26,894 nucleotides of DNA, taken from IMG/VR virus record IMGVR_UViG_3300024346_000427, positions 1 to 26,894 of that record; one strand, given 5' to 3'. The DNA comes from a virus. The translations under genes were made by a program, and so were the position numbers. This document shows, piece after piece, positions 2,375 through 25,148 of this stretch. The notes beneath the pieces are model-generated. The model was given only the letters and a program-made list of their open reading frames with translations, was not told the origin of the DNA and searched no databases. Position 1 is the stretch's first letter; the number at the start of each line of letters is the position of its first letter.

Positions 2375-5300
2375 TCACCCCCTAGCAGTAGGTCTAACTT
2401 TCGCAGATATATCATACAAATATAATCCAATACCATCTTGACCGCTATCGCTACTTTTTATATACAATCGAATTACAGCATAGTCAGATTGTATACGTCT
2501 CTGCTCATACCACTGTAATGTGTTACTGATATTAGTATTAATCAGCTCTAAGTCGTTAGTCAAAAAAGGAAGAGATCTATCAGCAACGAGGTCTCTGAAC
2601 CCATTAAAGTGCCAGCGCTCATGAGTATGACGCAAATTATGCCCTGTAGTAAGGCCTTCAGGAACAACTAAATCAATAAATCCACTGCAGTGCGTATCTG
2701 TATATACCAAGGCTTTAGTGAAGGTATTTTTATAGTGAGTAAATCGCTCTTCTGGGAAAGTCACAACGCGAGTGTCCCAGTTGAAGCTGCTGAATACCCC
2801 TGCCTGCCCTATCGGTGATGGTGCATCGATTGTAGACTCATTCACAACTCCATGAAACTTTCCAAAAGTCCCTGCTTGATTGTGAAACTTAGCAGACCGA
2901 ACTTGAGGTGATAGAGCGCCATCGATATTAATATTTCGAACGCGCAGAGCATACACAGTATTTAAACCTTCTAACAAAGCTGTACTGTCATAGGTATGTC
3001 TACTAACCCATGCTTGGTTCAAGTAGCTGTAACTAATGAATTCATCTTTAGATTCAATACCTGCATCTTCATTGTACTCATCTTGAGTGTCGATTGCATA
3101 GCCTGCACTAAAATCTCCTGTGTAATCTGCGTTTCTGATTAAGAGTATAACTCTATCGTACCGAGAATCATACGTAGCATGAAGGCCTGGAAAGAATTTG
3201 AAAGTATTAGAGGAAGAGAAAGTTGTATCTAGTTTCAGTTTTTCCTGAAACCAATCTTTCATTCCAGACCTACTAATTTCTTTTAGGTCTGTTCCTGCTA
3301 AAGAAAAAACTTTGCGTTGGTCTGCGTCAGCAAAGAAATACCCATGAGGCGTTAAAACACAAGACAGCAGATGTTGTGTGCCTGCATAGCCTTTATCGCT
3401 GGGTCGTATCTCTATAGGTTTTGTAGCCAATATGTCTGATTGACCTAAAGCTAGCTCTCCTGCTGTAGTCGATATCTTCTCCTGACCTTGAGTCATAAAT
3501 AACCCCCGCTCATGGTGAATAATAAGACGATCACCATAACCTTGAAGATTTTCAATCTCGCCACGGTCACGCTGCATATCAAAAAACTCTATGGGCTTAA
3601 ACGCGATAACGTTTGTAGATACTCCTAAAGACCCAATTTCACTACTGCGAACAATCCGATGGGGAAAATCATTTACGAATGTTTGCCCACTGCTAAAGAT
3701 TCCTACAGGCTGATATACATTTTCTGCATACAACCGTGACGGGTAATCATACAGTTGATCATTGCCAGGGCTAGCGGCTCTAAAAACATATTCGTGAGCT
3801 GATAGATTGACAGGATTGTCTAACTCATAGTTCAGATACTCGAACTTAGTGCGACCCTGAACTCTGTAATTGTATACTTGCGAAAGAATACCACGAGTAG
3901 AGTCTACGGTTGTAACGTGATTAGTAGATAGTAAATCAACAAGATTCGTAGCACTGCTTCCGTCGGCTACAGCATCAACACCTACAGGAGCTGTTAGCCT
4001 ATGCTTATAGAAACTCCTTACAATATCCCCAGCAACAAATGTGGTATCTATGCTACCTACATTAACAGATTCCCCATCAATTTGACCCAGCTCTGCAGAA
4101 GCTAATTTAGTGTAGGGAATCACTCCTGTACACGCTACTAAATCTTGTACAGCATAATTTTGGTAACAGGTAAATAGATGCTGTTTCAGATTTGTAATCC
4201 ATATCGGATTCGAAGCCTGTGATCCTGTATGTCCTGCAGTTAGATTGCTGTTGATTCTAAACCCTGTGCCTGGGTTCGAGGTGTTCCCTAAGTGCGTACC
4301 ACTGGTGCTTTTTAAAAAGTCTTTCCAGTCTGTACTGCTTGTCGAACTCGCATACTCGATGTTGAACCCAATACAAGTCTCACAAAATCTATTGTCAATT
4401 TCTAATTCATCATCGATAGCGTTGGTCTCAACGTATCGAACTGTGCTGACCTTTCTGATTCGTACACTATTGGTAAGATCTACCTGTCTTCCATTCTCAG
4501 GAAAGAAAGCTTTGCCTCCTACCGTAAGAGCATTTGGAGCATTAAGTATATCTGAGTCACCCCAGTAACCATTGTCTGAATTATCAGTTACAAGACCATC
4601 TCCTATAAGCCCTGTTTCACCAGTAGAACTTACACCATAATCAATCCTATAGTCGATGTTTTCAATGTAAGCAGTTTCAGGAAGATTTACTCTAGACCTC
4701 AATGCCTCAAAGCAATACATCCTACCCGTGGTTTCCTTTACCCCCGCAAACCAAGCAGCATTACTGAGTTGGTCTGTTGCACTAGATATGGTGTCTATGT
4801 CAGAAACTTCTTGAGAATTGTACTGAGGCAAGTTCATACCATGAGAACTTGTATAGTCATGGTAATCAGTTACAGTTTCAGCAATGTTAGAGTAGTGATT
4901 GTAGCTGCCATGAATCAAAATACTCTGTCCAATATGCAGACTATTGGTCAAGTCTCTTTTAGCATGAAACATTCGTACACCTACGTACCCCGCAGGCATA
5001 GGAACATTTGCAAACCGTATCCGCACTAAATCTGTAGCATCGCCCAGTATTGGGATTTTGTGATGACGAACTGGCTGACTAGCAAGAGTGTAGTCTGTAA
5101 TACTCCCAGAGTTATCAGAAGTATCTTCTACGGTCCATTGCTGAACAGGAAAGGTTGAAGGATACGTTTCTGCAGAGTTTTCCCAGTAACCGCAAACACC
5201 TACGCCACTTGTCACACCAGCAGGAGTGTAAGCACTTGCCGCACCAAAGTACTCATGGGTATTCCGAGTATGGAAATACTTCATGCCACTAGCAGCTATA

Positions 5301-6526
5301 TCGTTATCGTCTTCGAGATAACTCAGATTAGAGTTTGCTGCTATCAACGATGTATCTGTAGATCGTATAGTGCCAGAGGCTCCTGTTTCTACAGCAGTAA
5401 GATGAGACTGACCTATTAACCTTGGTGGAGACCCAGGAATATGGAAGGCTGGAGTTAGCGAACCGTCCTCACGCACATAGCTAACATAAAAAGCGTATAC
5501 CTCTCCAGGTTGAAAGGCAAGTCCTCCAAAATTTAAGTCTTGTTCCTTGTCATTGCCATTGAAACCTACTGTAGATACACCGTCTTCTGTGTGACCTCCA
5601 TAGTATGTTTGATACAATACCTGAATACGATTAGCGTACGCCTGAAGATCAGTAACATCTGCAGTTGCAACATTGCCCATGTACAACCGATTTCCTTGTA
5701 GAGTCAAGGTTTTAGCTTGGCTGTAAACAATGTTCTGAACTAAGATTTCATCTAAAGAAATGTCTTTTTGTAAGATGCCAGTCAGAGTAATAGTAGTTTC
5801 ATTGCCCTCATAAGGAAAGAAACCAGTAATGCCTGTGCTCACAGAATCATCATATACCGAAACAAAAGCTGCTGCTATATAAGAATAATCAGAGTCTAAG
5901 TTGCTTAGGTTCAAAGAAATAGTTTTCCCAGAATCGTAGACGACATATGGCCCATTTAGATTATTGAACTCTAGATAACTCTGGTCTTCATAGGCATAAG
6001 CAATCGCGATATAGTGAGTACCAGAATTAAAAAATCCTTGACCGCCTAAAGAGACTTGGTTCTGTTCTATGTAAACGGGGTCGTGCGTAGGACTGACCAA
6101 ACTAGGTACAGCAGTGGTGTCTACATTTAAGTATTTCGGAGGAGAAACATCATCCGTAAGAATAACAAAAGTTTGTCCAGAAGTAGTTTTAAAAGAAACT
6201 GCATCAATAACTGCAGTATCTGAAAATCCAAACACTCCGCTAGACAAAATTGTAGTCAACGTCCCAACAACTTTTACTACGTAGTTTGTCGTACTGTCTG
6301 GACGTTTGCAAAAAAGAATGATCCCATCGTCAACTAGCCCACAGCCACCTAAGATGTAAAATTTAGGAGCACTATCGTCTTGAACACTTGAGTCATTTGT
6401 GAACCCGGCTTCTTGTAGAAGCGAGTCCATGTGCTCTCCATAAACAAAGTTTACTGCATCTATATATAGACCCTCTGATGTTTTGCTAGGATGTACATCC
6501 CGCATCATTCCTTTTAGTGGTCTCAT
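2375..6526 (-). CDS. Muzzle / tail stabilisation-type protein (1383 aa)
   Basis: This is the largest gene in the window. The N-terminus has the pattern KGMMRDVHPS....GLYIDAVNFVYG, and further in are ILTDDVSPPKYLNV (about residues 122-135) and LTLQGNRLYMGNV. These resemble the conserved N-terminal signatures of the crAss-like 'stabilisation' protein, which in the solved crAss001 virion forms the muzzle at the tail tip. The family is usually about 1,300-1,500 residues, matching this length. The rest is beta-rich with no transmembrane segment. The start overlaps the stop of the ring protein gene as ATGA, the same gene order as in crAss-like phages. It should be part of the tail that closes the portal channel and contacts the cell. 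The assignment comes from pattern recognition and synteny, not alignment. Confidence 0.75.
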   Translation of the reverse strand: MRPLKGMMRDVHPSKTSEGLYIDAVNFVYGEHMDSLLQEAGFTNDSSVQDDSAPKFYILGGCGLVDDGIILFCKRPDSTTNYVVKVVGTLTTILSSGVFGFSDTAVIDAVSFKTTSGQTFVILTDDVSPPKYLNVDTTAVPSLVSPTHDPVYIEQNQVSLGGQGFFNSGTHYIAIAYAYEDQSYLEFNNLNGPYVVYDSGKTISLNLSNLDSDYSYIAAAFVSVYDDSVSTGITGFFPYEGNETTITLTGILQKDISLDEILVQNIVYSQAKTLTLQGNRLYMGNVATADVTDLQAYANRIQVLYQTYYGGHTEDGVSTVGFNGNDKEQDLNFGGLAFQPGEVYAFYVSYVREDGSLTPAFHIPGSPPRLIGQSHLTAVETGASGTIRSTDTSLIAANSNLSYLEDDNDIAASGMKYFHTRNTHEYFGAASAYTPAGVTSGVGVCGYWENSAETYPSTFPVQQWTVEDTSDNSGSITDYTLASQPVRHHKIPILGDATDLVRIRFANVPMPAGYVGVRMFHAKRDLTNSLHIGQSILIHGSYNHYSNIAETVTDYHDYTSSHGMNLPQYNSQEVSDIDTISSATDQLSNAAWFAGVKETTGRMYCFEALRSRVNLPETAYIENIDYRIDYGVSSTGETGLIGDGLVTDNSDNGYWGDSDILNAPNALTVGGKAFFPENGRQVDLTNSVRIRKVSTVRYVETNAIDDELEIDNRFCETCIGFNIEYASSTSSTDWKDFLKSTSGTHLGNTSNPGTGFRINSNLTAGHTGSQASNPIWITNLKQHLFTCYQNYAVQDLVACTGVIPYTKLASAELGQIDGESVNVGSIDTTFVAGDIVRSFYKHRLTAPVGVDAVADGSSATNLVDLLSTNHVTTVDSTRGILSQVYNYRVQGRTKFEYLNYELDNPVNLSAHEYVFRAASPGNDQLYDYPSRLYAENVYQPVGIFSSGQTFVNDFPHRIVRSSEIGSLGVSTNVIAFKPIEFFDMQRDRGEIENLQGYGDRLIIHHERGLFMTQGQEKISTTAGELALGQSDILATKPIEIRPSDKGYAGTQHLLSCVLTPHGYFFADADQRKVFSLAGTDLKEISRSGMKDWFQEKLKLDTTFSSSNTFKFFPGLHATYDSRYDRVILLIRNADYTGDFSAGYAIDTQDEYNEDAGIESKDEFISYSYLNQAWVSRHTYDSTALLEGLNTVYALRVRNINIDGALSPQVRSAKFHNQAGTFGKFHGVVNESTIDAPSPIGQAGVFSSFNWDTRVVTFPEERFTHYKNTFTKALVYTDTHCSGFIDLVVPEGLTTGHNLRHTHERWHFNGFRDLVADRSLPFLTNDLELINTNISNTLQWYEQRRIQSDYAVIRLYIKSSDSGQDGIGLYLYDISAKVRPTARG

Positions 6527-7323
6527 CGCATTAGACGTTCTTGAGTGTTATTCCCAATAAAGAAATCGGAGTGTGCATTCATATTTGGGACCATACGTAC
6601 CCACATGTTTTTGAAGCTTTCCATCTTGTCGATACTCGGATACGCTGCATCGTTCTGAGCTTTCAGACAATACTCCCCCCACTTCTGATCCGCTGTCTGC
6701 CAATTGAAAATCGGGTGAGTGTACCCTCCCATTATCATCTGCCTTAGTATGTACCATTCTAGAGCTTGTTTGTAGTAAATGTTGTCAGGTACTTTGGGGT
6801 ATCCATCTTCACATACAGGATATGCTGTAAAGTGAATCTTTATACTACCCTCTTCGAAAGAGGTTTGAATATAATCAGGGTTAATGACGTAATAGTCACC
6901 ACCTCCATAGCTAGCCGCTTTTATTGTTTTCTGCTGCTTGTATGTGTCGTTACCTAACGGATGCTTATTGGCTTGCGTTTGGAATACAGCTCCTGTAGTA
7001 ATTTCAGAGGGTGTATACGGCTGAGGGTTTGTAGTGCGTTCAGCATTAGGAAGGTCATACCCTGTAACATCAGATCCGTAATGCAGATGGCTGCCGTTAT
7101 ATTCTACCTGGATAATGTCTACCAGCTCGCAAGGCAAGGGAGAGCGGTAGTTAGAAATAGATACCGTACTCGCTTTCTTTTCTAATCCAGCAGAATACCC
7201 AATGTACTCCAAGCCCTCACCTATCCATTCAACAGAGTCAATAACCCAATTGTCAGTAGTAGGTTTTAAGTCCCGGAATACTTTGGCAATCACTGCCTTG
7301 GACGATACGGTTTTGTAAATCAT
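6523..7323 (-). CDS. Ring / tail-tubular-like neck protein (266 aa)
   Basis: The N-terminal region contains VIAKVFRDLKP, then DSVEWIGEGLEYIG and NYRSPLPCELVDIIQVEYNG. I recognise this series as the conserved opening of the crAss-like 'tail tubular' or ring protein encoded just before the muzzle. The C-terminal half has aromatic-rich stretches (IKIHFTAYPVCEDGYP, YYKQALEWYILRQM) typical of gp11-like adaptor folds. It probably forms a dodecameric ring in the neck between portal and muzzle. Both ends overlap neighbours by 4 nt (ATGA), so its synthesis is likely coupled to the small neck protein before it and the muzzle after it. Confidence 0.75.
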   Translation of the reverse strand: MIYKTVSSKAVIAKVFRDLKPTTDNWVIDSVEWIGEGLEYIGYSAGLEKKASTVSISNYRSPLPCELVDIIQVEYNGSHLHYGSDVTGYDLPNAERTTNPQPYTPSEITTGAVFQTQANKHPLGNDTYKQQKTIKAASYGGGDYYVINPDYIQTSFEEGSIKIHFTAYPVCEDGYPKVPDNIYYKQALEWYILRQMIMGGYTHPIFNWQTADQKWGEYCLKAQNDAAYPSIDKMESFKNMWVRMVPNMNAHSDFFIGNNTQERLMR

Positions 7324-7778
7324 TTTTTAAAATTCAAGTATGCAAACTCATCTTCTCGTAGTTTCTTAACCAATGCTTTTTTATTTCCTGCAGCCCCTGC
7401 TGTAGGAGAAAACGTGTATACACTCTTGTTTTTTACCATGCACCTGTGCTTGTCCCAATTCCATCTGAAGTAGTAATCATCAGTATAGTAGATAAGCTTG
7501 TTGATTCCCTCTTTCTTTAGCTTGTTAGTTTCATGCCAATCGACTGTGGGTCTATTGAATGATCTAGGAATACGCTTAATGCGCATCGTGCCTAATCTAT
7601 GCCCCATATTAAATACCCTGCCATCTAAAATAACTTTAGAAAGTTTCTTGTTGAACTCCGAAATAATATGCTTGTACAAGGCATATGTAACGGGTGTTGT
7701 AGGGTTGTTCTTACAATAGGACTTGTAGGAATCCTTAGTGCTATATCTACTCTCGCAGCTGTACTTCGTCGTTGTCAT
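7320..7778 (-). CDS. Conserved small neck-module protein (152 aa)
   Basis: This is a basic 152-residue protein with no membrane segment. Notable parts are YALYKHIISEFNKKLSKVIL, a short LGTMRIKRI strand, a TVDWHETNKL motif and YYFRWNWDKHRC. Its first 32 nt overlap the end of the ring-type gene upstream; there is no later in-frame Met until past residue 55, so this start is probably right. I recall a small conserved protein of this type in the same position of crAss-like genomes, between two ring genes, without a firm function. A neck or head-completion role is the simplest reading. Confidence 0.65.
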   Translation of the reverse strand: MTTTKYSCESRYSTKDSYKSYCKNNPTTPVTYALYKHIISEFNKKLSKVILDGRVFNMGHRLGTMRIKRIPRSFNRPTVDWHETNKLKKEGINKLIYYTDDYYFRWNWDKHRCMVKNKSVYTFSPTAGAAGNKKALVKKLREDEFAYLNFKK

Positions 7779-8397
7779 CTTGTCTATTCTCTAAACGCAT
7801 TTCTGTTCCTAGGATGCTTTGAGTAATTCGTTGAACCATGTCCATCGAAATTGGATATTCTTTGTCAGCAGTAAAGACCGTTGTACCGTCACAGCATGTG
7901 TAATTTTCTAGCTCTTCTGGCTGCTCAAAAATCCCCTTTACTAAGATGCTTTTGGGTCGAGCGTTCAACACATAGATGCGATCCTTAGTGTAGATATACT
8001 GAGGTAGTTTGTTTACGTACTTGTTGTGCTTGCTGTACTCTGCCTGAACTGGAGTTGTCCTCTGAAAAGGCTCTTTGGCATCAGCAGTGCCTACAAATGC
8101 AAATTCTGAACCATCATAAATACGCACAGGCTTTGGAATAGTCTGTTTAGTTCGCCACACATCACATCCTATGTCAATAGCAGAACAGCATTCTAAGGCG
8201 CTAGAGGCTTCCATTTCCAAACAATCTAAGGATTGTACCAGCTGACTAGGGAGACTGTAATTACGACGCTGATCTTGCCTAACAAACTGTGCACGGTAGT
8301 ATCCCACCATAAACTTCAGGCGTTCGCGTAATACCGCATCATCACCGCGCTCCATTTGTTCTGCGATATTGTAGATGATTTCGTTTAGCGTTGCCAT
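7747..8397 (-). CDS. Ring-type virion structural protein (216 aa)
   Basis: It begins MATLNEIIYNIAEQMERGDD and continues LKFMVGYYRAQFVRQDQRRN, a pattern I associate with a conserved crAss-like structural protein of the neck rings. The middle has QTIPKPVRIYDG and QYIYTKDRIYVLN, then KGIFEQPEEL, consistent with an adaptor-like fold. Five cysteines are present, including CC pairs at about residues 69 and 168. Its start overlaps the holin gene by 13 nt and its end overlaps the next gene by 32 nt. The role as a neck ring is inferred from gene order with the other ring protein and the muzzle. Confidence 0.65.
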   Translation of the reverse strand: MATLNEIIYNIAEQMERGDDAVLRERLKFMVGYYRAQFVRQDQRRNYSLPSQLVQSLDCLEMEASSALECCSAIDIGCDVWRTKQTIPKPVRIYDGSEFAFVGTADAKEPFQRTTPVQAEYSKHNKYVNKLPQYIYTKDRIYVLNARPKSILVKGIFEQPEELENYTCCDGTTVFTADKEYPISMDMVQRITQSILGTEMRLENRQDDNDEVQLRE

Positions 8398-9771: not shown

Positions 9772-10772
9772 ATCGAGCCGTATCTATCGACGTATGCATC
9801 AAAGTTCTGCTCTATCTCTGCGGCAGTCAACACCCTGTTGTACATCATTAGCTCGTAGGTATTCGTAGACAGCTTGTTAGAGCTGACCACTGCATTGCCA
9901 TTGTACGAGGTATTCAAAGCCATTACGCCGTGATGCCAATACTGGCTTCCGTCTTTAATCTGGCTAGTAGTGTCATAAGTCAGGTTTGCACTAGACCCGC
10001 TAAGATTACTCATTGATCCCTGTGATGCGCTGGCAGTAAATGTTTGACCATTAATATAACAGATAAAGTTATTGCTTGAGCTAGAGGTTAAGTCAACGGT
10101 CATAGCAACATGTACCTTAGTGTTGGGCTTTAGTTCGTACTGACTTCGACTACTATTGTAATGGAAGTAAGTTGACATATTACTAGGAGGCTTTAGTCTA
10201 ACAACAGAGCCATAGTAATTACTATGGTCAAACCCGTAAAGACCATATCTTAGGAGTGTACCTCTGGTAGAGGAAGAATAAGTTTGCCTTCTGCGCCTAC
10301 TTGCCAATCCACAATATGCGTCGCTTACTACATACCCCGTGCTGCCATCTTCAGGAAAAGAGAAGACAGCCATAAAGGTATATTGGTCCTGATCGTGCGT
10401 TTCACTACCACTAGAGGCTGAACCCTCTCCATAAAAATAATCAGTTGAAGGAACACTTATTTCACCGTAATCATCCACTCCATCAAACTGTATGTAGTTG
10501 TCTCCTGAGGTAGGCTCCGTCGGGCCATTGCTCAGAGTCATGCTATAGCCGTTAGAACTCAGGTCGGTCCAGGTGGTTGGGGTAGTAGACGAGTTGTAGC
10601 TGTTTTCGTCTCCTGCGTTAAAGTGCATCTCCAAACCACTACTTACATAGTCTGTCAAGGACACGGATGTCGCCGTAGAGCCGTTAAACTTTGCAATACT
10701 AGCTTTAGCAATGCTGTTAATCTTAGCAACCGAGCTAAAGGCTAAGGCGTTTATTTTACCTATATCAGCCAT
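9768..10772 (-). CDS. LamG / concanavalin-like adhesin (334 aa)
   Basis: The N-terminal ~35 residues carry a repeated hydrophobic motif, IGKINALAFSSVAKINSIAK then KFNG, which I take as a virion attachment segment. From about residue 41 the protein looks like a concanavalin-type lectin of the LamG group: YVSSGLEMHFNAGD, TWTDLSSNGYSMTL, YIQFDGVDDYGEI, a VHVAMTVDL strand, ICYINGQ, and the closing ELMMYNRVLTAAEIEQNFDA. These are standard landmarks of phage and Bacteroidota lectin-like proteins. It probably binds surface glycans of the host. The start overlaps the previous gene as TAATG and the end overlaps the next as ATGA. There is an unusual Arg run (SRRRRQ) near residue 160. Confidence 0.8.
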   Translation of the reverse strand: MADIGKINALAFSSVAKINSIAKASIAKFNGSTATSVSLTDYVSSGLEMHFNAGDENSYNSSTTPTTWTDLSSNGYSMTLSNGPTEPTSGDNYIQFDGVDDYGEISVPSTDYFYGEGSASSGSETHDQDQYTFMAVFSFPEDGSTGYVVSDAYCGLASRRRRQTYSSSTRGTLLRYGLYGFDHSNYYGSVVRLKPPSNMSTYFHYNSSRSQYELKPNTKVHVAMTVDLTSSSSNNFICYINGQTFTASASQGSMSNLSGSSANLTYDTTSQIKDGSQYWHHGVMALNTSYNGNAVVSSNKLSTNTYELMMYNRVLTAAEIEQNFDAYVDRYGSI

Positions 10773-11953
10773 TATGCAATCTCAATATAGTCTGGAGAAG
10801 GATTTATGTAAATGTATCCGTTAGCCAAAACGTACCCTACAACTCTTACAAAGTCCCCTGTAGCGGAAGGAGCGGTAGCCGTTACAGTACCTTCTGTTGT
10901 TCCTACATACAGAGTATCTCCAGCTGAAAATGAATGAGCGCTACTTGAGTGTATACCCTTGACAAGGATGCCATTTGTAGCTGAAGAAGTGCCTAGCGCA
11001 ATGCCAACCAAACCTTTGGTCTTAGCTTCGACATCTGCATCAGCAGCGACCCACCCCGAAGAAGTGTGAACGTAGAATTTATTCTGAACTAATGTGTTGC
11101 TTCCAAATTTCACGACCTCCCCTTCCCAAGTGTTATTGGCATAAGCACTGCTCCTAGTGACAATTTCTATTGATTGTCCGTCTAGCTCGTTAGCTGCGGT
11201 AATAAATCCTGAGTCGTTCGACAGTTGCGAGGTAGCCGTGGGTATCGTAGGTGTGTTAGAAATATCTCCGTAATCGATACCGGTGGTATCACCGCTAAAT
11301 GTTACAGTGTTTGCAGCACTAGAGAATGTAACATTTCCAGATACATCCAAAGAGCTGGTGTTCAAGTCTACTACAGGAGCTTGTACGATATTACTCATCT
11401 GTATGTCTAGAACCTCAACTGGAGTGCCTGCATTTTCCAGATACACTTCTAACCTTCCATATGCAGAGTTCTTGCCAGACGTATTGTTTAGGTCGTCCTC
11501 AGTAATCTTTAAGTAGCTTCCATACAGCCCAATAGATGCAGCATGCGTGTCAAGTTCTAGCGTACCGCCTTCGTCTCTGTCAGCACCCCCACTATCGAAC
11601 TTGTGTACAAACTTTGTTGTCCCTGAGTTGTTCTCAGATGTATCTGCTTTTACAAACTTCACCAAGTTTATGTTTTCAGCAAACACATCGTTAAGTGCGG
11701 TCACTGTTGCAGATGCTGATGCGCCTAGTGCAGTACCGTCTTCGTCGGTGAATAGTGTATACGCTGCTTTTTGAAACAGATATATGTCTGAAGCAGCAGC
11801 AGTTGATTCTCCTATCCGAACATCTACTGTGGTATTGTCGCTTGAATTTACTTCAGCTATAATATTTGCTTGGTTGTCAAAGAACTGTACAGCTGATTTT
11901 TGGGAGTCATCAAACAGTACTTGCCCATTATGTATGTATACTTTAACAGCCAT
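10772..11953 (-). CDS. Virion appendage protein with conserved C-terminal domain (393 aa)
   Basis: The N-terminus (MAVKVYIHNGQVLFDD, then FQKAAYTLFTDEDG at about residues 60-73) resembles the head of structural proteins common in aquatic phages. The middle has a fibre-like element, GDISNTPTIPTATSQLSNDSGF. The last ~80 residues hold a compact domain: KGLVGIALG, GILVKGIHS, AGDTLYVGTTEG, then VRVVGYVLANGYIYINPSPD. That last domain is found on many phage capsid- or tail-associated proteins. It is likely an appendage or spike subunit with this domain exposed. It sits between a calcium-loop fibre and a lectin, and it shares the overlapping-gene style (TAAATG upstream, TAATG downstream). The exact place in the virion cannot be told from sequence. 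Confidence 0.7.
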   Translation of the reverse strand: MAVKVYIHNGQVLFDDSQKSAVQFFDNQANIIAEVNSSDNTTVDVRIGESTAAASDIYLFQKAAYTLFTDEDGTALGASASATVTALNDVFAENINLVKFVKADTSENNSGTTKFVHKFDSGGADRDEGGTLELDTHAASIGLYGSYLKITEDDLNNTSGKNSAYGRLEVYLENAGTPVEVLDIQMSNIVQAPVVDLNTSSLDVSGNVTFSSAANTVTFSGDTTGIDYGDISNTPTIPTATSQLSNDSGFITAANELDGQSIEIVTRSSAYANNTWEGEVVKFGSNTLVQNKFYVHTSSGWVAADADVEAKTKGLVGIALGTSSATNGILVKGIHSSSAHSFSAGDTLYVGTTEGTVTATAPSATGDFVRVVGYVLANGYIYINPSPDYIEIA

Positions 11954-11954
11954 T

Positions 11955-13301
11955 TTAACTGATTACGAGGTTAGTAATGTTAGTACCGAAAGACACTGTC
12001 CAAGCCTCCGGCTTAATTACAATGTTCCCTGAATTCGCTGCCGCAGAGCTATTGTACCCCCACCTCATGCGCACCTCTTGTACGTCTGCCACCCAAAAAT
12101 CAGTTCCAGCGGCTTCTTCCCAGGCTGCTACTAAATCAATTGATTGACCATTACCTGCAGGCCATGCTGCTGCAGGATCAAAAGCCTGAGTTATACCAAC
12201 TGGTACTTCTAAAAAAGGAACCTGACCAGGTACGTAAGCCCCTGAGGGTGTAAAAGAGCTAAAGTTATCTGTCAGGCTTTGATCAGAAAATCCAACCTGA
12301 AACTTTCCTATTAGCATGGTGTGATCTGTCCATGTACCACTGACCTTGCGTCCTACAGTAAGCCAAATAAAAACAAGAGCTGCTCCTGCCCCAGTGTAAT
12401 CTATTCCCCACAATGGACTATAGGCAAACCCAAACCCGTATACACCAGATCCTCCAGCTGCAATTTCTACCTCTGTGCCATCACTAAATGTTACAAAGTC
12501 ATCTGCTGTTGTCACAGTAACAGCTACTGTGTTGCTGTCTGAGGGAACATCTCCTGTAGTTGCACTAGTTCCGGCTACAGCAACACCGAAATACGTGACA
12601 GTTGCAGCCACACCGGTTATATTGATGTTGCCGTCTATCTCGTCTGCTTCAAACGTAAAGTACTTCTTTCCGTACTGTGCTGCGGGTACTGCCTGACCAA
12701 TAAGCCCAAGCAGAGCAATCAAATCAGCAGTGTTGACTATACCATCCCCATTCATATCGCCAGGGCTTCCCCCAGTACTTACGCTACCTCCGTAGCTACC
12801 AACGGTGCCGTAGCCATCAGCAACATAGCCATTAACTATGTCGTTTGTAATAGCTTCTATAATGTTTCGAAGTGTAAGACTTCTTACTCCTTGAGTACTG
12901 TTAATTCTTGCTACAAATTTTACATCATCTAGATGGTCAGCTAGTGTTTCTCCTATGCTTTCTGAGGCGCTATCTGCTACAGCAGCTGCAAAATCCCCAG
13001 GTTTAAATAAGCTTGTGTAGCGATCAGTATGAAAAATCTCATTATGGTTGCTAGCTGTTCCCCAAGCAAGATTATTGCCTTTATACAGATAAGCATCGTA
13101 CCTTGCTGTTGCACCCTTTATTATAGATAGATAGCCGGGAGTTTGTAGATTAGCCTCTCCCCAGGTAGTCCAATCTGATGTAGAGCCAAAAATACCTATA
13201 CCTTTTATTGGGCTATTGGTATTAGTTCCGTCCTCTGACAGATCTATGACAGGGAATCCAGACCGAGCGTTTTCTATTACATCAGCTAGTTTTATCGGCA
13301 T
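11955..13301 (-). CDS. Fibre protein with anchor domain and dockerin-type calcium loop
   Basis: Residues 1-95 form an N-terminal domain (MPIKLADVIENARSGFPVID..., ending AYLYKGNNLAWGTASNHNE) that clearly resembles the start of the 567-aa protein two genes upstream, so it is likely a shared virion anchor. A helical linker follows (about 104-160), then a Gly/Ser hinge and a dockerin-type loop, DMNGDGIVNTAD (residues 182-193), with the D, N, D, G, N and D ligand positions all present. The remaining 250 residues are beta-rich with a closing NIVIKPEAWTVSFG strand. It overlaps the DUF1617-like gene by 20 nt. It is likely a tail fibre or spike; the calcium loop may stabilise the fold or dock a partner. 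Confidence 0.75.
   Translation of the reverse strand: MPIKLADVIENARSGFPVIDLSEDGTNTNSPIKGIGIFGSTSDWTTWGEANLQTPGYLSIIKGATARYDAYLYKGNNLAWGTASNHNEIFHTDRYTSLFKPGDFAAAVADSASESIGETLADHLDDVKFVARINSTQGVRSLTLRNIIEAITNDIVNGYVADGYGTVGSYGGSVSTGGSPGDMNGDGIVNTADLIALLGLIGQAVPAAQYGKKYFTFEADEIDGNINITGVAATVTYFGVAVAGTSATTGDVPSDSNTVAVTVTTADDFVTFSDGTEVEIAAGGSGVYGFGFAYSPLWGIDYTGAGAALVFIWLTVGRKVSGTWTDHTMLIGKFQVGFSDQSLTDNFSSFTPSGAYVPGQVPFLEVPVGITQAFDPAAAWPAGNGQSIDLVAAWEEAAGTDFWVADVQEVRMRWGYNSSAAANSGNIVIKPEAWTVSFGTNITNLVIS
12723..12758 (-). other. Dockerin-type calcium loop (in 448-aa fibre)
   Basis: The twelve codons encode DMNGDGIVNTAD, which matches the type I dockerin loop D-x-N-x-D-G-x-x-N-x-x-D at every ligand position. 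The following LIALLGLIG is the hydrophobic helix expected after the loop. Only one loop is present, whereas cellulosomal dockerins have two. Confidence 0.8.
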
Positions 13302-13665
13302 CTTCTTTCACGATTAAGTAGTCCATAGCTGCAAGCAGAACATTAGGCTCAATCATCAAAGTGCCATCATCAATAAGAGTGACTTTCTTCAAACGGACTT
13401 TCTGTTCCGTATTTAAAAGATCCTCTACTTGATCCCGAAATGCAACAGCATCTTCTTCACTTACCTCTGGCTCTCCCTTTGCATCTGTAGACGCCTTGGT
13501 TTTTAGAACTCCGATGTGAATCTCTCGCTGCTCTTCGAATAGATCCACTATAGGCTTAAGCTTTGAGATATTCTGAGCCAGCATCCAACTGGTTTTAAGT
13601 GGCAGCGTGTTAGTGCTGATTTGCTGGAAGGCACGGAAAACGTTGATACATTCTTTGAGTAACAT
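13282..13665 (-). CDS. DUF1617-like phage protein (127 aa)
   Basis: The N-terminus (KECINVFRAFQQISTNTLPL then KTSWMLAQNISKLKP) has the 'ALxxL....LPxKxSxxIAKNxxKL' layout I associate with DUF1617-type phage proteins found in tail modules of many siphophages and podophages. The first ~60 residues should be helical. A charged central stretch (GEPEVSEEDAVAFRDQVEDLL) and a short beta C-terminal part follow. It may be a small assembly or chaperone protein for the neighbouring fibres. It is preceded by a 30-nt gap and overlaps the 448-aa fibre gene by 20 nt. The family call is moderate; the function is unknown. Confidence 0.6.
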   Translation of the reverse strand: MLLKECINVFRAFQQISTNTLPLKTSWMLAQNISKLKPIVDLFEEQREIHIGVLKTKASTDAKGEPEVSEEDAVAFRDQVEDLLNTEQKVRLKKVTLIDDGTLMIEPNVLLAAMDYLIVKEDADKTS

Positions 13666-15764: not shown

Positions 15765-17468
15765 TCAGCTGATGATAAAGGTGCCATCAAATGCAGCAGG
15801 TGCATTAGAGCAGTAAACTTCGTAACTAGTATTTGTAACACCGAAGTAGCTTTCAAAATCTACAGTTAGCGATTTGTACAGATTGGAACCGTTTTGAAAA
15901 GCAGTAGCAAGATTCGATCCTCCGGGTACTTGAAAATTCTCAAGCACATTTAAGGCTGCAGGGAACGCAATCCATGTAAACATACCATCCGGAGCTGTCA
16001 CCGATACGTTGCCTCCACTAGTCGTAAAGTTTGGATCACCACTGGTATCACTACTGCCAATGAATTCATACTGTGCATATGAATTGCTAGCCGGAGAGTT
16101 ACCATCGCCGTCTTGAATATCATCGAGCACCGTAGTCATTGTGGCGTCGTCGCTGTTGGTAAACTCGGTACCATCAGTGGAGTTATAACCTACGATACTA
16201 GGCCACCGGAACGTAATGTCGTCAATAGTGGGGTCAACAGTCCCTTCAGCATCCGTAATGCGTACTCGGTAGTATATACGAGCTTCATCAATGTCTGCTA
16301 CTTGTATTGCAGTACTAACGGCTGTGTAGCCAGAAGGCGTGGCATCTGTACCGGTCACATTGTTAGCCGTAACCGCCACAGAGTCATAAAATTTGTACGT
16401 AGAACTTGTGCCAGTTAGACTTAACCCGGTTATAGTACGTATCGTAGACCATGATGTGTTGTTGTAACTGCGCTGCAATAGAGCTTGTGTAATTGGAACA
16501 TTAGGACTGTTGCATTTTAGCTTGAATTCGATCTTTGATGCCACGTTACCATACTCACGTTCATCATCAGACTCATTGGTTGCAAGACCCGTGTTTTGAC
16601 GATCCATGACAATACTCTGCAATGTTGGTTGCGAGTAATTTGTTACCCTCACATAACCCTTGTTAGCATACGCTCCTTCAACTTGTACTACAGTAGTAGC
16701 TGATCCTGAGCCATCATTAGGTGTAACTTTTATTCGGTATTGAAAATCATCTTCTTGACCTGCTGTAGTAGAAAGAGTATCGTTGAAGGTGAAAGTCTCC
16801 GTGCCATCAGAAGTATCATTCAAATTGGCAAAGGTGCCGCTTGTAAATGCAGCTACAGCGCCAGCACTATCCGCTATAGTTGCGTAGGAGGAATCAGCTG
16901 CTGTAAATAACTTGCGCTGCAGATCCACACTTGCAATGGCATAGTTGTTACCACTAACTACCGTATAGTTGTTATTGGTCACAGTAAAAGTAATAGTTCG
17001 GGATAGACTACTTTGAGCAGCATCGTCATATGCTATCAGAGTGTTTGAACCGCTTGCAAAGCTCGTTGTAGGAGCCTGAAAGCTAACTAATACTGATAGA
17101 ATTAGGTCTAATGCGCTATCTCCTGAAGCACCTAAAGTTCCTGTACCACTTATTGTACCAAATGTGTTCCCTCCAATACTGTAGTTAATAACATCGTCTA
17201 AGACAGACTCTGCAGTGCCTATAGCTACTTCTTTCCAGTTACCCGCAGTAGCCCACGCAACATTTGCTAAGTCAGTACTTTGATATACGTATACCTTATT
17301 GCCAGTTGTGTCTACAAGAATAGTACCGTTTGCCCTCTTCTGTGGAAAATCAGTTAGACCTGGCAGGCCAGTAGAAAATATAACGCCTTTTAAGTGATTG
17401 CTCGTGGCATCAACAATAGGATATGATCCATTCTGATTCTCTAGAGTATCTCCAAATTTAATAGCCAT
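15765..17468 (-). CDS. Large beta-rich fibre protein with anchor domain (567 aa)
   Basis: Residues 1-82 are the clearest copy of the shared anchor: MAIKFGDTLENQNGSYPIVD, then GNKVYVYQSTDLANVAWATA and NWKE. After it comes a module with ALDLILSVLVSFQAP (about residue 120), followed by successive beta-sandwich-like segments such as TITFTVTNN and YRVRITDAEGTVDPTIDDIT. The last ~80 residues (FTWIAFPAAL... YEVYCSNAPAAFDGTFIIS) resemble the end of the 344-aa gene product upstream. It is likely a multi-domain fibre or spike arm built from Ig-like repeats. It begins 3 nt after the preceding stop. Receptor specificity cannot be predicted. Confidence 0.75.
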   Translation of the reverse strand: MAIKFGDTLENQNGSYPIVDATSNHLKGVIFSTGLPGLTDFPQKRANGTILVDTTGNKVYVYQSTDLANVAWATAGNWKEVAIGTAESVLDDVINYSIGGNTFGTISGTGTLGASGDSALDLILSVLVSFQAPTTSFASGSNTLIAYDDAAQSSLSRTITFTVTNNNYTVVSGNNYAIASVDLQRKLFTAADSSYATIADSAGAVAAFTSGTFANLNDTSDGTETFTFNDTLSTTAGQEDDFQYRIKVTPNDGSGSATTVVQVEGAYANKGYVRVTNYSQPTLQSIVMDRQNTGLATNESDDEREYGNVASKIEFKLKCNSPNVPITQALLQRSYNNTSWSTIRTITGLSLTGTSSTYKFYDSVAVTANNVTGTDATPSGYTAVSTAIQVADIDEARIYYRVRITDAEGTVDPTIDDITFRWPSIVGYNSTDGTEFTNSDDATMTTVLDDIQDGDGNSPASNSYAQYEFIGSSDTSGDPNFTTSGGNVSVTAPDGMFTWIAFPAALNVLENFQVPGGSNLATAFQNGSNLYKSLTVDFESYFGVTNTSYEVYCSNAPAAFDGTFIIS

Positions 17469-18506: not shown

Positions 18507-18889
18507 CACTCAGTAACCTGTGGCTTGACTTTAAATTTCCCTTCAATGATTCTTTCTACGGAAGAGTCACTGTTCACTAGCTCTAAGTCATACACTCCCT
18601 GATTAAAGGTCATTGTATCAGTAGTAGCTGAGGGTATAGTGAGGGTGAACTTGCCAATATCGTCCCCTGATTGTGTAGGGATATTAAAGTGGGCTAAGTA
18701 ATCCGCATCTGCACTCGCATCGCTAGTAGCTCTGTACACAAACTCTGTGTCTGTAATATGGTCTTTCACAGCCATACGGACTCTAGCACCAGTTAGACTG
18801 ATTCCCGCGTTAGCGCTGTCCTTATACACAAATGTGACCTCGTGCTGAGACCCCTGCTCTACTATGAAGTTGTATTTACCAGATGCCAT
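18506..18889 (-). CDS. BppU-like Ig-fold appendage protein (127 aa)
   Basis: The sequence starts MASGKYNFIVEQGSQHEVTF, has SLTGARVRMAVKDH at about residues 31-44, and ends GVYDLELVNSDSSVERIIEG with a final VKP. This is the usual outline of a small Ig-like protein family common in aquatic phages and comparable to the N-terminal domain of the BppU baseplate protein. It probably links fibres to the virion or caps an appendage. Its start overlaps the metallophosphoesterase stop as TAATG and its stop overlaps the next ATG, so it is tightly coupled to both. Family recognition is good; the exact place in the virion is inferred. Confidence 0.75.
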   Translation of the reverse strand: MASGKYNFIVEQGSQHEVTFVYKDSANAGISLTGARVRMAVKDHITDTEFVYRATSDASADADYLAHFNIPTQSGDDIGKFTLTIPSATTDTMTFNQGVYDLELVNSDSSVERIIEGKFKVKPQVTE

Positions 18890-20115
18890 TACAATACATA
18901 TTCAAAAACGTTTGGTTTGCCTCGACCGTTATTTTCAATAACTGTATATCCAGGACTGCTGTTCCAACCATTACTCTCAGAGTAAAAGTTGCCTGTAAAT
19001 AAAGGTGCTACAGCAATTTGCCGGTAGTTTGCCTGATCCACAAGTTTTTCTTCTACGGAACTATATACTCTTTTACCTCGTCTGGAATGCCAGTGACCTC
19101 CTAGCATTACATTGTACATACCCTGCTTTCCATGTTCCCAAAAAGCTTTGCCTAAATCACCTTTAGAAATGTTGTAGTGGTTATGGGTAAGCAGATAGAA
19201 TATACCATCTACTTCTATTCCTAAAAGTAAAGGATGATACTCAATATTTAAAGAAGTGTTTTCCTGCAGCATATATGCAAGTAGTGACGCTACAGAACCT
19301 TGAGGGTCTCCAGTTAGTTTTGGGGTTAGCCTATCATGGTTTCCACTCACTATAGCAACCTTGACAGTATTAGTTAAGCTTGTCAAGAAACGTCTGAGGA
19401 TCGTATACGCTGTAATTACGATGTGTGACCCGTACCCATCCTTTTCTAACTCTTTCCAAGTTGACTCGTGGCTAATGCCAGTAAAGGATTCTATGAAGTC
19501 TCCGAGCAAGCATACGGTAACCTTCTTGTATTTGCGACCATTTACATTAGTAGCAACCTCTTGCAATCGTGACACCACATCTTTCGTACTGAAGCTAGGA
19601 GTATTTCCAATGGCATCGACTTGAGCACCTATGTGAAAATCGCTTAGAACAAGCACACAATGGTTTGTACCTGGCTGATTGTAAATCTGAAAACCATCTA
19701 CACTATGCTTTAAGTCCTCTTTGATTCTTGCCCAATCAACACCTGATACTTTGCGGGTCAAGTGAACTTTTACTTGGTAGAAAGTTTTGGAGCCTGTTTT
19801 TGTAGGAGCATCCCAACTGTTGCAGGTATAACGTCCTACTTCCCAAACATTTAAGTCTACTTCAAAGTGCTTTATAGCTTTCTCTAAAGAGTCTATTTGC
19901 TCAGTACCCTTGTAGGTCAGTACAGCATCCTTAGAAGATACGTCTGTGCCTGTACCAGATTTAGGGCCATTCCTCAACTCTCCTACTTTTCTGCGTAAAG
20001 TTCGGTGACTTATAGAAAGGGTATCGTAATCTAGAAGAATAGCAGACGCAATCTCTGTATGAGATTTCTCTGAAAACCTGTTAGAGTACTCGGCTATTAT
20101 TTCTTTTAAGCTCAT
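18889..20115 (-). CDS. Calcineurin-like metallophosphoesterase with HTH-like N-terminus (408 aa)
   Basis: All five signature motifs of the family are in order: SDFHIG (D159, H161), LGDFIE (D206), SGNHDR (N259, H260), a histidine in THNHY (H311, H313), and GGHWH (H341, H343). These residues bind two metal ions and hydrolyse phosphodiesters or phosphomonoesters. The first ~50 residues contain a helix-turn-helix-like stretch (HTEIASAILLDYDTLSISHR, then TLRRKVGELR), and residues about 50-145 form a region I do not recognise. Members of this fold include nucleases such as Mre11/SbcD, protein phosphatases and cyclic-nucleotide esterases; I cannot choose among them. It is coupled by ATGA and TAATG overlaps to fibre genes, an odd place for a nucleic-acid enzyme. 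Confidence 0.9.
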   Translation of the reverse strand: MSLKEIIAEYSNRFSEKSHTEIASAILLDYDTLSISHRTLRRKVGELRNGPKSGTGTDVSSKDAVLTYKGTEQIDSLEKAIKHFEVDLNVWEVGRYTCNSWDAPTKTGSKTFYQVKVHLTRKVSGVDWARIKEDLKHSVDGFQIYNQPGTNHCVLVLSDFHIGAQVDAIGNTPSFSTKDVVSRLQEVATNVNGRKYKKVTVCLLGDFIESFTGISHESTWKELEKDGYGSHIVITAYTILRRFLTSLTNTVKVAIVSGNHDRLTPKLTGDPQGSVASLLAYMLQENTSLNIEYHPLLLGIEVDGIFYLLTHNHYNISKGDLGKAFWEHGKQGMYNVMLGGHWHSRRGKRVYSSVEEKLVDQANYRQIAVAPLFTGNFYSESNGWNSSPGYTVIENNGRGKPNVFEYVL

Positions 20116-21818
20116 ACTTCAGAAATACTATACCTTATTTTGATTCGGTCTAAAGGAGTAGTAGACCACCCAAGATTACTCCTATTAAAAGTAAAAGTTG
20201 ACGTAGAACTTAAAGTAGTGCTATTAGCTAAAACGAAAAAGTTGTTTGGTTGCAATTCTAGCGTGGGGAACACATCCATTTGATAGTCTGAAGCAGTAAC
20301 ATCGGAATTCGCAGTGAACGTAATGGTTATTGTTTCTGTAGCATCGTCTGGATCCCAATGGTTAGGGGAGACCGACATAGAGCCAATATTAGCTAAGTCT
20401 ACTGGAGTATCAGAAACAGCTTCGAGGTATATGAGATTGCTTACTCGTTGGGATACCCAGCTAGTTTTAAAATGCAAATCTCTGTCTACAGTAGCAGGTA
20501 GTGTTACTGCAGTAGAACTCATAAATCCATTGTTGTCCGGTACAGAAATGCCAATGGTTTCGCTGACTTCAGGAGCCCCACTAAAATCTGAAGATGTGTA
20601 ACCCTCTACCTTAATAGTGCTATTATATACCTGAGAATACAGGCTGTAGTAAATGAAGCCATATGACGACGGCTCATTTAAACGGAAGTTTACTACGTCA
20701 GATGGCTCAAAAGCTACAGTAGTAGTATCAGTGCTATTAACCCAAACACTTGCAGCAGAAAGAGTAGCGGTTTGATTCGAGGTAAGTAGAGTAAGAGTAT
20801 TATTTGCCTCTAGGACATAAAATACCAGTGCTGCCGTGCTATCAAAGTCGTTAGACAGAGTAACGTATGAAACGTATGTGCCATCTGCTTGAAGCGAAGT
20901 AAAGTTCAAATTGTATACGGAAGTAGTAGCGCCATCCGACACTATAACCTTTGCCGTAAGATCTGTTAGTTCTTTCTTTTGCCCAGAATAGCTAGGGCTA
21001 CTGCTAGTTGTTTGGAAGCTGTAATCAGTAGTTACAGGGGATATAGAAAACCCTACTTGATTATTAGGAACCAGCGGATTGTACTCTGATGTGTACAGCG
21101 TAACATTTAGGTGTTTAGCCGCACCTAAGCGAAAATCATAGCTTCTCCCTGAGCGAATCAGAATGTCAGCAGCTGCGATAAGGCCATCATCATTTAAATC
21201 CCCTAATGGAACATCTGGGAATGTTGTAACCAACCCTACAGAATCAGAAGACTCTAGAGTTCCTAACGAATATGGTGACTCGCTGTACCCAAGCTTAACG
21301 TCCTCAGTAATGGCACCAGATAATGCTGTAGTCACGGTGATTACTCCTGAGTATGTATTTGGTATAGTAAAGGAGAAATCAGCATCATTATCCTCGGTAT
21401 TTACTAAAACAATATTTGATGCGGAGTCTCCGTATTGAGTGCTGATTACTGCATTAACCTCATATCCTGTTATTGGAGATAATTCAGAAACACCGATAAC
21501 CTCAAACGTTATAGTTCCCCCAGGAGAATATGTTGCTGTAGTGTTTTGGTATGTAGTAAAATTACCATCATAGTACACCACATCGTAAGTGACGACAGGA
21601 GGAGTGTAGTCCTCGAAGCCTGGGTCTTCGGGGTCGTCTACATAGCCATTCTTAGCAGTGTAGAGGAGGGTATTGATGAAGAAGTCTTGCTTATCACAAT
21701 CCCTATGCAAGTCATACTCTGCCTTAGCAATATAGATTGTAGCTGCACCTGAGAAGTACTTGTCTAAAGCAACATTCAGGTCTGTAGTAGTGTCGTAGTC
21801 AGCAGGTAAGAAAAACAT
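20112..21818 (-). CDS. Large appendage protein with dockerin-type loop (568 aa)
   Basis: The start at 21818 forms TAATG with the upstream stop. A start nine codons earlier would add MHLYLRLFL and overlap the upstream gene by 28 nt, giving a false look of a signal peptide, so I rejected it. Residues 1-60 form a helical head (LNVALDKYFSGAATIYIAKA, HRDCDKQDF). The rest is beta-rich with a dockerin-type loop DLNDDGLIAAAD at residues 207-218, followed by ILIRSG. The C-terminal half has Ig-like strands (ETITITFTANSDVT). It is probably a fibre or spike that works with the Cys-tailed 199-aa protein encoded just before it. The overlap with the metallophosphoesterase gene is ATGA. Confidence 0.7.
   Translation of the reverse strand: MFFLPADYDTTTDLNVALDKYFSGAATIYIAKAEYDLHRDCDKQDFFINTLLYTAKNGYVDDPEDPGFEDYTPPVVTYDVVYYDGNFTTYQNTTATYSPGGTITFEVIGVSELSPITGYEVNAVISTQYGDSASNIVLVNTEDNDADFSFTIPNTYSGVITVTTALSGAITEDVKLGYSESPYSLGTLESSDSVGLVTTFPDVPLGDLNDDGLIAAADILIRSGRSYDFRLGAAKHLNVTLYTSEYNPLVPNNQVGFSISPVTTDYSFQTTSSSPSYSGQKKELTDLTAKVIVSDGATTSVYNLNFTSLQADGTYVSYVTLSNDFDSTAALVFYVLEANNTLTLLTSNQTATLSAASVWVNSTDTTTVAFEPSDVVNFRLNEPSSYGFIYYSLYSQVYNSTIKVEGYTSSDFSGAPEVSETIGISVPDNNGFMSSTAVTLPATVDRDLHFKTSWVSQRVSNLIYLEAVSDTPVDLANIGSMSVSPNHWDPDDATETITITFTANSDVTASDYQMDVFPTLELQPNNFFVLANSTTLSSTSTFTFNRSNLGWSTTPLDRIKIRYSISEV
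21165..21200 (-). other. Dockerin-type calcium loop (in 568-aa protein)
   Basis: The codons give DLNDDGLIAAAD, matching D-x-N-x-D-G-x-I-x-x-x-D with the usual Gly at position 6 and Asp at position 12; position 9 is Ala rather than Asn or Asp. It is the second such loop in the operon and again occurs once only. Confidence 0.7.
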
Positions 21819-22417
21819 TAAGAACAGCCGCAAATACAGGTGCAAGAACTTCCGGTACAGATGTTAGACATCAATGTGACTTTTCGTTCTGCTGCTGTAT
21901 AACGGGCTGCATTAACATCAAGTTGTGCACCTGTTCTAAGTGACACTAGCTCTTGCAGTGTCTGTAATTGCTGGGTCTCTTTACACTTATCGCATGAACT
22001 AGCTAAATAGGTGTCGAGCTTGGTAGAGATGCACGTATCGATAGCAGCTAAGTACAATGTGTACTCGTCAAAACTATAGGTGGTGCCTCCGAATGAGTAG
22101 TCAACTTGAAAACGATAAAGACCGTCCGGAAACGTACTGGTAGTTATCGAGGGAACTTTGGACGGAGTAATCTCTAGTGGATTACCCCAAGATTGGGCTA
22201 GAACATAAGTGTATCCAGCATCAGATACAATTGCTTGTTCAGCAGCAGCATCTGCTCCTGTAGAAGTGTCTAACAGAGTCTCTACTTCAACAAGAGTATG
22301 GCGACCTGGAGTATTGACCTTGAGAAGTAAATCTTCACGCGTCGTGGAGTTAGGGGTGTGATCCTGCAATTGGAACACACCCCCGACAACCTTAATTCTC
22401 CAATACCCTGTAGCCAT
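21818..22417 (-). CDS. Virion protein with cysteine-rich tail (199 aa)
   Basis: The body (residues 1-125) is beta-rich, with YWRIKVVGGVFQLQDHTPNS at the start and TFPDGLYRFQVDYSFGG at about 94-110. Then comes a helical region beginning DTCISTKLDTYL, with a CDKC pair at 142-145, and the protein ends with C187, C192, C194, C196 and C198 in a C-x4-C-x-C-x-C-x-C array. This could bind zinc or an iron-sulfur cluster, or be crosslinked by disulfides; the sequence cannot tell. I recall similar paired genes in phages of Bacteroidota but cannot name a family. The stop overlaps the next start as TAATG, suggesting the two products are made in fixed ratio. Confidence 0.65.
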   Translation of the reverse strand: MATGYWRIKVVGGVFQLQDHTPNSTTREDLLLKVNTPGRHTLVEVETLLDTSTGADAAAEQAIVSDAGYTYVLAQSWGNPLEITPSKVPSITTSTFPDGLYRFQVDYSFGGTTYSFDEYTLYLAAIDTCISTKLDTYLASSCDKCKETQQLQTLQELVSLRTGAQLDVNAARYTAAERKVTLMSNICTGSSCTCICGCS

Positions 22418-24456: not shown

Positions 24457-25148
24457 TATTCACTTTTTGATTGTTCAATCGAATTTGTTTGATACCTCGG
24501 AGACTCGATAGCCTCTATAATATTCTTTACTGCTAAGTCCACAATCTCTTGGTGAGTGTGGGTTGCAAGCTCGCAATCTAGGGACGAAGATAGGTTAATC
24601 TGTACCGGATTGCGAATATAGTCGACGAATACCGTTTTTAATATATACTTTTCGCCATCTTGAAAGACCCTTATTTCGTCATCATGGATGAATCCTGAGG
24701 GTGCTACCTTGCTAGGTTTTGCAAAAGGATTCTCTATATGCGAATAGATTTGGTCCTGTTCTACTATACGAAGTTCCCTTTTCACAAGACTGTCAGAAGT
24801 GCTTACTGCAGTCTTACAGTTATTGGTATGGAACTCTATCCTAGTATTGATTAAAAACATGTAGTCTACCGGAAGGTCGAAGTTCACAAACTCCAAAGCA
24901 GAGTTTGGAACAACGCCATCCGTGTAGTCTACCGTAATAACTAAGCGCAGATCATCAACACGCTTTTGCAACTTGCTGAATCCTAGCTTTTTGCTATCAA
25001 ATACAGGTGCCAAGCGATGCTTTATGTATCTATCCTGGGCGCGGTTTAACCAAAAGTCAACCTCTTCAGGAAGGAAGTAATCGTAAACTGAGGAAGCTAC
25101 CTTTTGCAGTCCCTGGTCTACGGCATAGTGCATCTCTTGTACAGTCAT
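24456..25148 (-). CDS. Ring/neck-type structural protein (230 aa)
   Basis: The N-terminus reads MTVQEMHYAVDQGLQKVASS then FLPEEVDFWLNRAQDRYIKHR and KRVDDLRLVI. I associate this 'glxxvxs..yd.flpeEvdxxLNxAQ.r.i' pattern with a conserved crAss-like virion protein of the neck rings. A central FDLPVDYMFLINTRIEF stretch and a long C-terminal helix (THQEIVDLAVKNIIEAIESP) are typical of connector-type proteins. It starts right after the preceding stop (TAAATG). It is separated from the other ring-type genes by about 16 kb of appendage genes, which is unusual. The assignment is by pattern and context. Confidence 0.65.
   Translation of the reverse strand: MTVQEMHYAVDQGLQKVASSVYDYFLPEEVDFWLNRAQDRYIKHRLAPVFDSKKLGFSKLQKRVDDLRLVITVDYTDGVVPNSALEFVNFDLPVDYMFLINTRIEFHTNNCKTAVSTSDSLVKRELRIVEQDQIYSHIENPFAKPSKVAPSGFIHDDEIRVFQDGEKYILKTVFVDYIRNPVQINLSSSLDCELATHTHQEIVDLAVKNIIEAIESPRYQTNSIEQSKSE

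Follow-up and report, generated by a model that had tools for sequence, protein, structure and literature searches.

A putative calcium-stapled half-dockerin joint in a fibre-like protein of a crAss-like phage

The open reading frame at positions 11955-13301 (minus strand) of the DNA analysed here encodes a 448-amino-acid fibre-like structural protein, identified from its sequence and a structure model. In the reading that we consider probable, it is an appendage protein of a crAss-like phage in which a calcium-stapled joint connects a fixed anchor to a variable tip. The whole stretch analysed (the window) comprises positions 1-26,894 of IMG/VR record IMGVR_UViG_3300024346_000427 and encodes 26 proteins (8,762 amino acids). 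The putative joint is a module of about 95 residues made up of a beta-hairpin, a helix, a Gly/Ser linker, one dockerin-type calcium loop and one more helix; the loop and the helix that follows it are referred to below as a half-dockerin.

Results

The window and its structural genes

The window contains two virion markers of the Crassvirales: a major capsid protein of crass type and the ring proteins. The capsid gene (26040-26894, minus strand) is represented by its C-terminal part and runs off the window; its product matched 104 records, 29 of them Flavobacterium phages, and the best 20 of the 104 gave 35-40% identity to crass phage major capsid proteins. The ring proteins, all on the minus strand, were recognised by Pfam with a cut-off of 27 bits: ring protein 1 (6523-7323; 165.9 bits), ring protein 2 (7747-8397; 113.2 bits) and ring protein 3/4 (24456-25148; 31.8 bits). 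No Crassvirales portal or terminase was recognised within the window. The ORF at 2375-6526, with weak matches (20-25% identity) that include many crass records among those listed, appears to occupy the place expected of the muzzle gene. Judged by these matches, the phage is crAss-like.

The fibre ORF sits in a block of structural genes, with ring protein 3/4 on one side and ring protein 2 on the other, in keeping with the preliminary description of this DNA, which had called its product a tail fibre. Immediately downstream lies another structural gene (10772-11953, minus strand), residues 278-392 of whose 393-residue product match the "tail fiber protein" of Flavobacterium phage immuto (38.7% identity, E 3e-8). 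Given this neighbour and the capsid matches to crass and Flavobacterium phages, the host is probably a member of the Bacteroidota. A calcineurin-like phosphoesterase/exonuclease-type gene (18889-20115, minus strand; phrog_284, E 1.1e-19) is found in the middle of the structural block.

Directly upstream of the fibre gene is a conserved gene for a 127-residue protein (13282-13665, minus strand), which overlaps the fibre start by 20 nt. The overlap (13282-13301) recurs in those related loci that show both genes, and the two genes are likely to be translationally coupled.

Layout of the fibre protein

The N-terminal, anchor-like part (aa 1-62; 13116-13301, this and all following segments on the minus strand) is 56.5% identical to the corresponding part of a related uncultivated phage protein, L158. 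Starts of the type M-P/A-I-K-L-A-D, and variants of it, recur in the genes that follow the 127-residue gene in related loci. The module begins with a beta-hairpin and helix (aa 118-163; 12813-12950), defined from the structure models and from homology upstream of the loop that was detected without using the loop. A Gly/Ser-rich linker (aa 164-180; 12762-12812), seen in sequence and model, leads to the half-dockerin (aa 181-202; 12696-12761), which is predicted in the models and contains the single calcium loop DMNGDGIVNTAD (aa 182-193; 12723-12758). The remainder, the tip (aa 203-448; 11958-12695), is variable in comparisons and beta-rich in the model.

For phiCrAss001, the published structural study describes a trimeric tail fibre, gp22, whose residues 1-26 dock in the tail hubs (PMC10172136). 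By analogy, the conserved N-terminus of the present protein would be its anchor. When compared by description, the protein resembles gp22 and the head fibres gp21 and gp29 as a crAss-like appendage with a short N-terminal docking part; the main text of that paper contains neither "calcium" nor "Ca2+". The first ~90 residues encoded by the fibre gene and by the ORF at 15765-17468 (minus strand) are weakly similar (28% identity, E 0.016), which suggests that an anchor of this kind may be common to several appendage proteins.

The loop matches the dockerin consensus far beyond chance

In DMNGDGIVNTAD, ligand positions 1, 3, 5 and 12 are D, N, D and D, as the preliminary description had read them, and position 6 is G. 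Two instances of the pattern D-x-[ND]-x-[DN]-G-x-[VI]-xxx-D are found among the 26 proteins of the window; shuffled versions of these proteins gave a mean of 0.0085 occurrences, and none of 2,000 shuffles reached two. The loop DMNGDGIVNTAD is thus real and far beyond chance. When a 42-residue segment around it was compared with the PDB, dockerins came first (best match 2y3n_B, E 2.5e-7), followed by calmodulins.

The module is predicted to be compact

A full-length model made with A3, a 31-row alignment of modules described below, had a mean pLDDT of 61.8; ten-residue blocks within aa 101-200 reached 64-88, and the anchor, for the most part, and some stretches of the tip fell below 50. The module modelled alone (aa 118-212) gave a mean pLDDT of 83.4 and a pTM of 0.71 and is confidently predicted to be compact, with the order helix, hairpin, long helix, short helix, loop, helix. 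The long helix ends at aa 161 and no helix directly precedes the loop. Both models predict the loop segment to be ordered, so the disorder that had been named as grounds for rejecting the loop did not materialise. The hinge position proposed for it is also borne out by the AlphaFold model, in which the loop follows the Gly/Ser linker and stands between a helix and the beta-rich C-terminal part.

Structure searches revealed no clear relative. With the full model, Foldseek found nothing at E<=0.001 among PDB entries or viral predicted structures and, with the module, no significant match (best E 3.3); calbindin and a calmodulin complex ranked 20 and 23, both non-significant. VIA with the module reached a Z of 2.5 at most, with no reliable relative, a result in which the absence of EF-hands among the rows carries no weight.

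The module recurs in uncultivated phages

A tblastn search of protein parts against 50,697 named phage records found no significant match (one search gave only E 5-9), although tblastn may overlook a loop this short, and no relatives of the whole protein were found in named phages or IMG/VR. The module was therefore reached through loop patterns and the neighbouring gene. A strict loop pattern returned no contigs; a degenerate one returned 23 IMG/VR contigs and a second pattern 67, and searching with A1, an alignment of eleven modules, gave 28 loci among 151 pattern hits. Ten of the 41 distinct loop ORFs, in nine loci, were dropped from the module count as having a different architecture (L003, L009, L017, L019, L047, L051 with two ORFs, L052, L102 and L115). 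Separately, four virus-assigned contigs (L003, L019, L047, L192) encode proteins with near-terminal dockerin-like loops; those scanned (L003, L047 and L192) are M43 (pappalysin-type) peptidases, and the L192 match spans both dockerin repeats.

The collection from uncultivated phages, in which the query, L155 and L158 are included, comprises 34 non-redundant modules. The preliminary description had called such a fibre uncommon: this holds for the named phages, where no significant match was found, but not for uncultivated phages, in which the module is recurrent. A half-dockerin in phage fibres was not found described among the matches listed in open-licence papers.

The modules largely share the hairpin-helix, followed by a Gly-rich linker, the loop and a D-L-L-x-F-L-x-x-F-G-type helix. 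Most module proteins other than the query came from the loop patterns, which preselect loop residues; the hairpin-helix lies outside this selection. A hairpin-helix profile built without the loop and without the query scored the query at 36.8 bits, against 10.6 bits for the best shuffle (1,984 of 2,000 reported). When all same-locus orthologues were removed as well, the query scored 32.8 bits and the best shuffle 9.6.

The length that follows the loop is fairly constant: of 30 complete proteins, 29 have 196-261 residues after it, and the outlier, L116, which was retained in the counts, has 56. Before the loop, 27 proteins have between 83 and 1155 residues, the shortest value (L014) being doubtful, as a near-copy of this ORF in L022 has 257. 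Since many records are fragments, counts of phage genes beside the module are minimum figures: a crass-type capsid in at least 9 of 33 module-bearing records, the phrog_6547 portal together with the phrog_6681 terminase in L002 and L129, that portal also in L038, and a tape-measure protein in L103. The module thus recurs in phages whose packaging and tail genes differ.

The ligands are conserved where the loop was not searched for

The alignments A3 and A6 each hold 31 of the 34 modules, A6 omitting L043, L116 and L123. D182, D186, G187 and D193 are the sole invariant columns of A3; in A6, 24 of the 31 rows have N at position 184 and the other 7 have D. The four ligand residues whose conservation the preliminary description had made decisive are therefore kept, the second with an N/D exchange.

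A search independent of the loop was made with an alignment of the 127-residue upstream gene (A2), whose rows, besides the window's own, came from loop-bearing loci. It gave 24 loci, 17 of which contain enough of the next gene, the other 7 ending at a contig edge first. A loop with all ligand positions is present in 17 of 17. These loci all belong to a single lineage, and for 14 of them the contig had also been given by the loop searches; L155, L156 and L158 lie on contigs absent from both loop patterns and from the A1 scan. The 17 loci contain 12 distinct segments, in all of which D1, D5, G6, V8 and D12 are invariant; position 3 is N in 11 and D in one, and positions 4, 7, 9 and 10 vary. The codons at the ligand positions differ synonymously. 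In three fibre proteins (L155, L157 and L163) an extra EF-like loop, for example DVNNDGTYSPAD, begins at about aa 89-92; it is weaker, aligns with the latter half of the dockerin profile and lies ~165 residues before the conserved loop.

The anchor and tip vary around the joint

Along the protein, identity between L158 and the query falls from 56.5% over aa 1-62 to 36.4% over aa 63-117 and 20.0% in the hairpin-helix, rises to 64.7% in the linker and 59.1% in the loop plus helix, and is 27.2% in the tip. On the contig of L008/L032, most neighbouring genes are 84-97% identical to those of the window, against 51% for the gene at 10772, about 49% for that at 13696 and 76% for that at 15765; the fibre gene aligns over its first 61 residues only (49%). 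From these identities, the whole fibre block is variable at the sequence level, and the fibre gene (11955-13301) is the most variable within it. As other genes of the block also vary among close relatives, variability of the tip does not by itself mark it as receptor-binding.

The tips fall into several groups, with many pairs lacking BLAST similarity, and the query tip matched only that of L158. In Foldseek it weakly resembled jelly-roll lectins and carbohydrate-binding modules, a resemblance so weak that no receptor type is claimed. A dockerin carbohydrate-module fold match appears in PMC5967307.

Relation to dockerins and EF-hands

Against the Pfam dockerin family PF00404, the whole query scored 13.8 bits, with profile positions 2-18 of 57 aligned; scores for three query lengths (13.8, 16.9 and 14.6 bits) all lie below the gathering cut-off of 22.9. 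All 18 phage records examined matched the profile at E<=1, a threshold at which 9 of 14 control genomes match too, and two of the 18 reached the cut-off: one through the fibre module of a same-locus orthologue (G005, locus L159) at 22.9 bits over profile positions 2-23, with a single repeat, the other through the M43 peptidase gene of L192. With one fibre module at the cut-off and 19 of 31 module rows matching the Pfam dockerin at E<=0.1, kinship with dockerins is likely on sequence grounds. The query appears to share the calcium chemistry of dockerins but, having one repeat instead of two and a score below the Pfam cut-off, does not qualify as a dockerin proper; "half-dockerin joint" fits it better.

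Each of the 34 modules has one strong loop, with no second strong loop within 60 residues; three loose second-loop matches (L030, L033 and L038) are 9 or 19 residues off. Dockerins are usually terminal in their proteins and contact cohesin through basic residues at positions 17-18. Across the 12 distinct segments, position 17 is L, M or N and position 18 is G, Q or T (L and G in the query). No cohesin was found at E<=1 in the 18 phage records, which are mostly fragments and in which cohesins could be divergent.

The query is thus like a type I dockerin (PF00404) in its loop (D1, N/D3, D5, G6, D12), in the hydrophobic helix and in its best PDB match, and unlike one in being a single repeat internal to a virion protein, with a sub-cut-off score, no basic contacts and no cohesin found. 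Like the EF-hands of calmodulin and calbindin, it has a 12-residue DxNxDG loop with a helix after it, and calmodulins are among the sequence matches. It differs from these EF-hands in the Asp at position 12 and, in the model, in the Gly/Ser-rich stretch and short helical turns that separate the loop from the helix ending at aa 161.

Half-dockerins elsewhere in the virion and in host-like genomes

A genome scan with A1 gave at least 44 loci, mostly Planctomycetota by title; three (L058, L062 and L069) belong to Flavobacteriales/Cryomorphaceae drafts (G018, G019 and G020). In these drafts, picked because they matched, the A6 profile matched 61, 30 and 97 times (E<=0.01), the majority of the listed matches extending little beyond loop and helix. 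Four genomes in a sample of 40 Flavobacteriales matched at E<=1e-8, two of them (G018 and G019) being seeds of the search. The three drafts yielded one cohesin match, below threshold. The dockerin-like motifs of Bacteroidota and Planctomycetota have a similar loop-helix (GDLNGDGxVxxADLLxFLGxFG-like) but are C-terminal, internal or tandem in the few examples read, and most of the matches listed lack the hairpin-helix. The 30-97 matches per draft, mostly loop and helix, suggest that the loop-helix of phage and host is likely to have a common source.

A second structural protein of the window (20112-21845, minus strand) also has an internal half-dockerin-like loop, recognised by the pattern and from homologues: DLNDDGLIAAAD, aa 216-227 (21165-21200, minus strand), which was absent from the preliminary description. 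Among 13 other records, 9 contain homologues of this ORF. L180/L181 retain the loop, L182, L183/L189 and L185 have an altered form of it, and four short homologues (L184, L186, L187 and L188) lack it. From its retention in long homologues, a lone loop within a beta-rich protein may be a wider building element of these virions.

Discussion

The protein described here would consist of an N-terminal anchor, a conserved joint of ~95 residues and a variable, beta-rich C-terminal tip. In the mechanism that we favour, calcium would be held by D182, N184, D186 and D193; such loops also bind calcium through a main-chain carbonyl. Binding would fold the loop and make it rigid, and the amphipathic helix 191-202 would pack its conserved hydrophobic face on the preceding hairpin and helix, fixing the tip to the stalk. 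With the loop folded and the helix packed, the tip would be held firmly in place. Where the water contains enough calcium the joint would be closed, and without calcium it would loosen. The protein would presumably be trimeric and exposed on the virion, and its tip may bind a receptor. The joint and a tip of fairly constant length would be retained while anchors and tips change. As related uncultivated phages keep the joint while their tips differ, the joint probably serves to keep the tip in place rather than to dock to a cellulosome-type partner.

Other readings of the same loop have to be weighed against this joint. Two or three fibre chains could pair through their single repeats, completing a dockerin in trans and forming a calcium-dependent oligomerisation knot. 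The solitary strong loop in all 34 modules, the conserved hydrophobic helix face D-L-L-x-F-L-x-x-F-G and the trimeric gp22 of phiCrAss001 (PMC10172136) would all suit such a knot, as would the weaker second loop near aa 90 in some same-locus orthologues, whose match falls in the second half of the profile. Yet the monomeric module is already confidently predicted to be compact, so that no partner chain is required, and we regard pairing as unlikely, if worth keeping in view. Docking, the role that the preliminary description had raised, in which the half-dockerin would bind a partner in the virion or on the host surface in the way that a dockerin binds its cohesin, fares worse and seems quite improbable. 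It can draw on the cellulosomal dockerins as nearest solved relatives by sequence, on the many module-profile matches in the three Flavobacteriales drafts and on the second structural protein of the same phage with such a loop. Against it stand the single repeat, the sub-cut-off Pfam score, the absence of lysine and arginine from positions 17-18 of all 12 distinct segments, the internal position of the loop, and the cohesin searches, with 0 of 18 phage records positive at E<=1 and one sub-threshold match in three host-like drafts.

That the loop is a product of chance, or a functionless remnant of a host segment acquired by recombination, is hardly credible: the same loop-helix is indeed abundant in host-like proteins, but its ligands are invariant, their codons vary synonymously, and it is present in all 17 neighbour-gene loci. 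A broader conjecture, to which we give a low probability, is that Bacteroidota phages use the loop-helix, a tag repeated dozens of times in surface proteins of their hosts, as a calcium-dependent connector. It would either lock the fibre, as a trans-completed dockerin, only at environmental calcium levels or engage a non-cohesin host receptor for dockerin-like tags and thereby aid adsorption.

If the joint works as proposed, half of a cellulosomal module would serve as a joint in a virion. Its host-side relatives point to a large set of half-dockerins in some Bacteroidota, found there almost without cohesin. The joint would also offer a testable structural reason for a possible calcium dependence of adsorption in crAss-like and other Bacteroidota phages. 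In marking the boundary between a fixed anchor and an exchangeable tip, it may allow candidate receptor-binding tips to be found in uncultivated phages.
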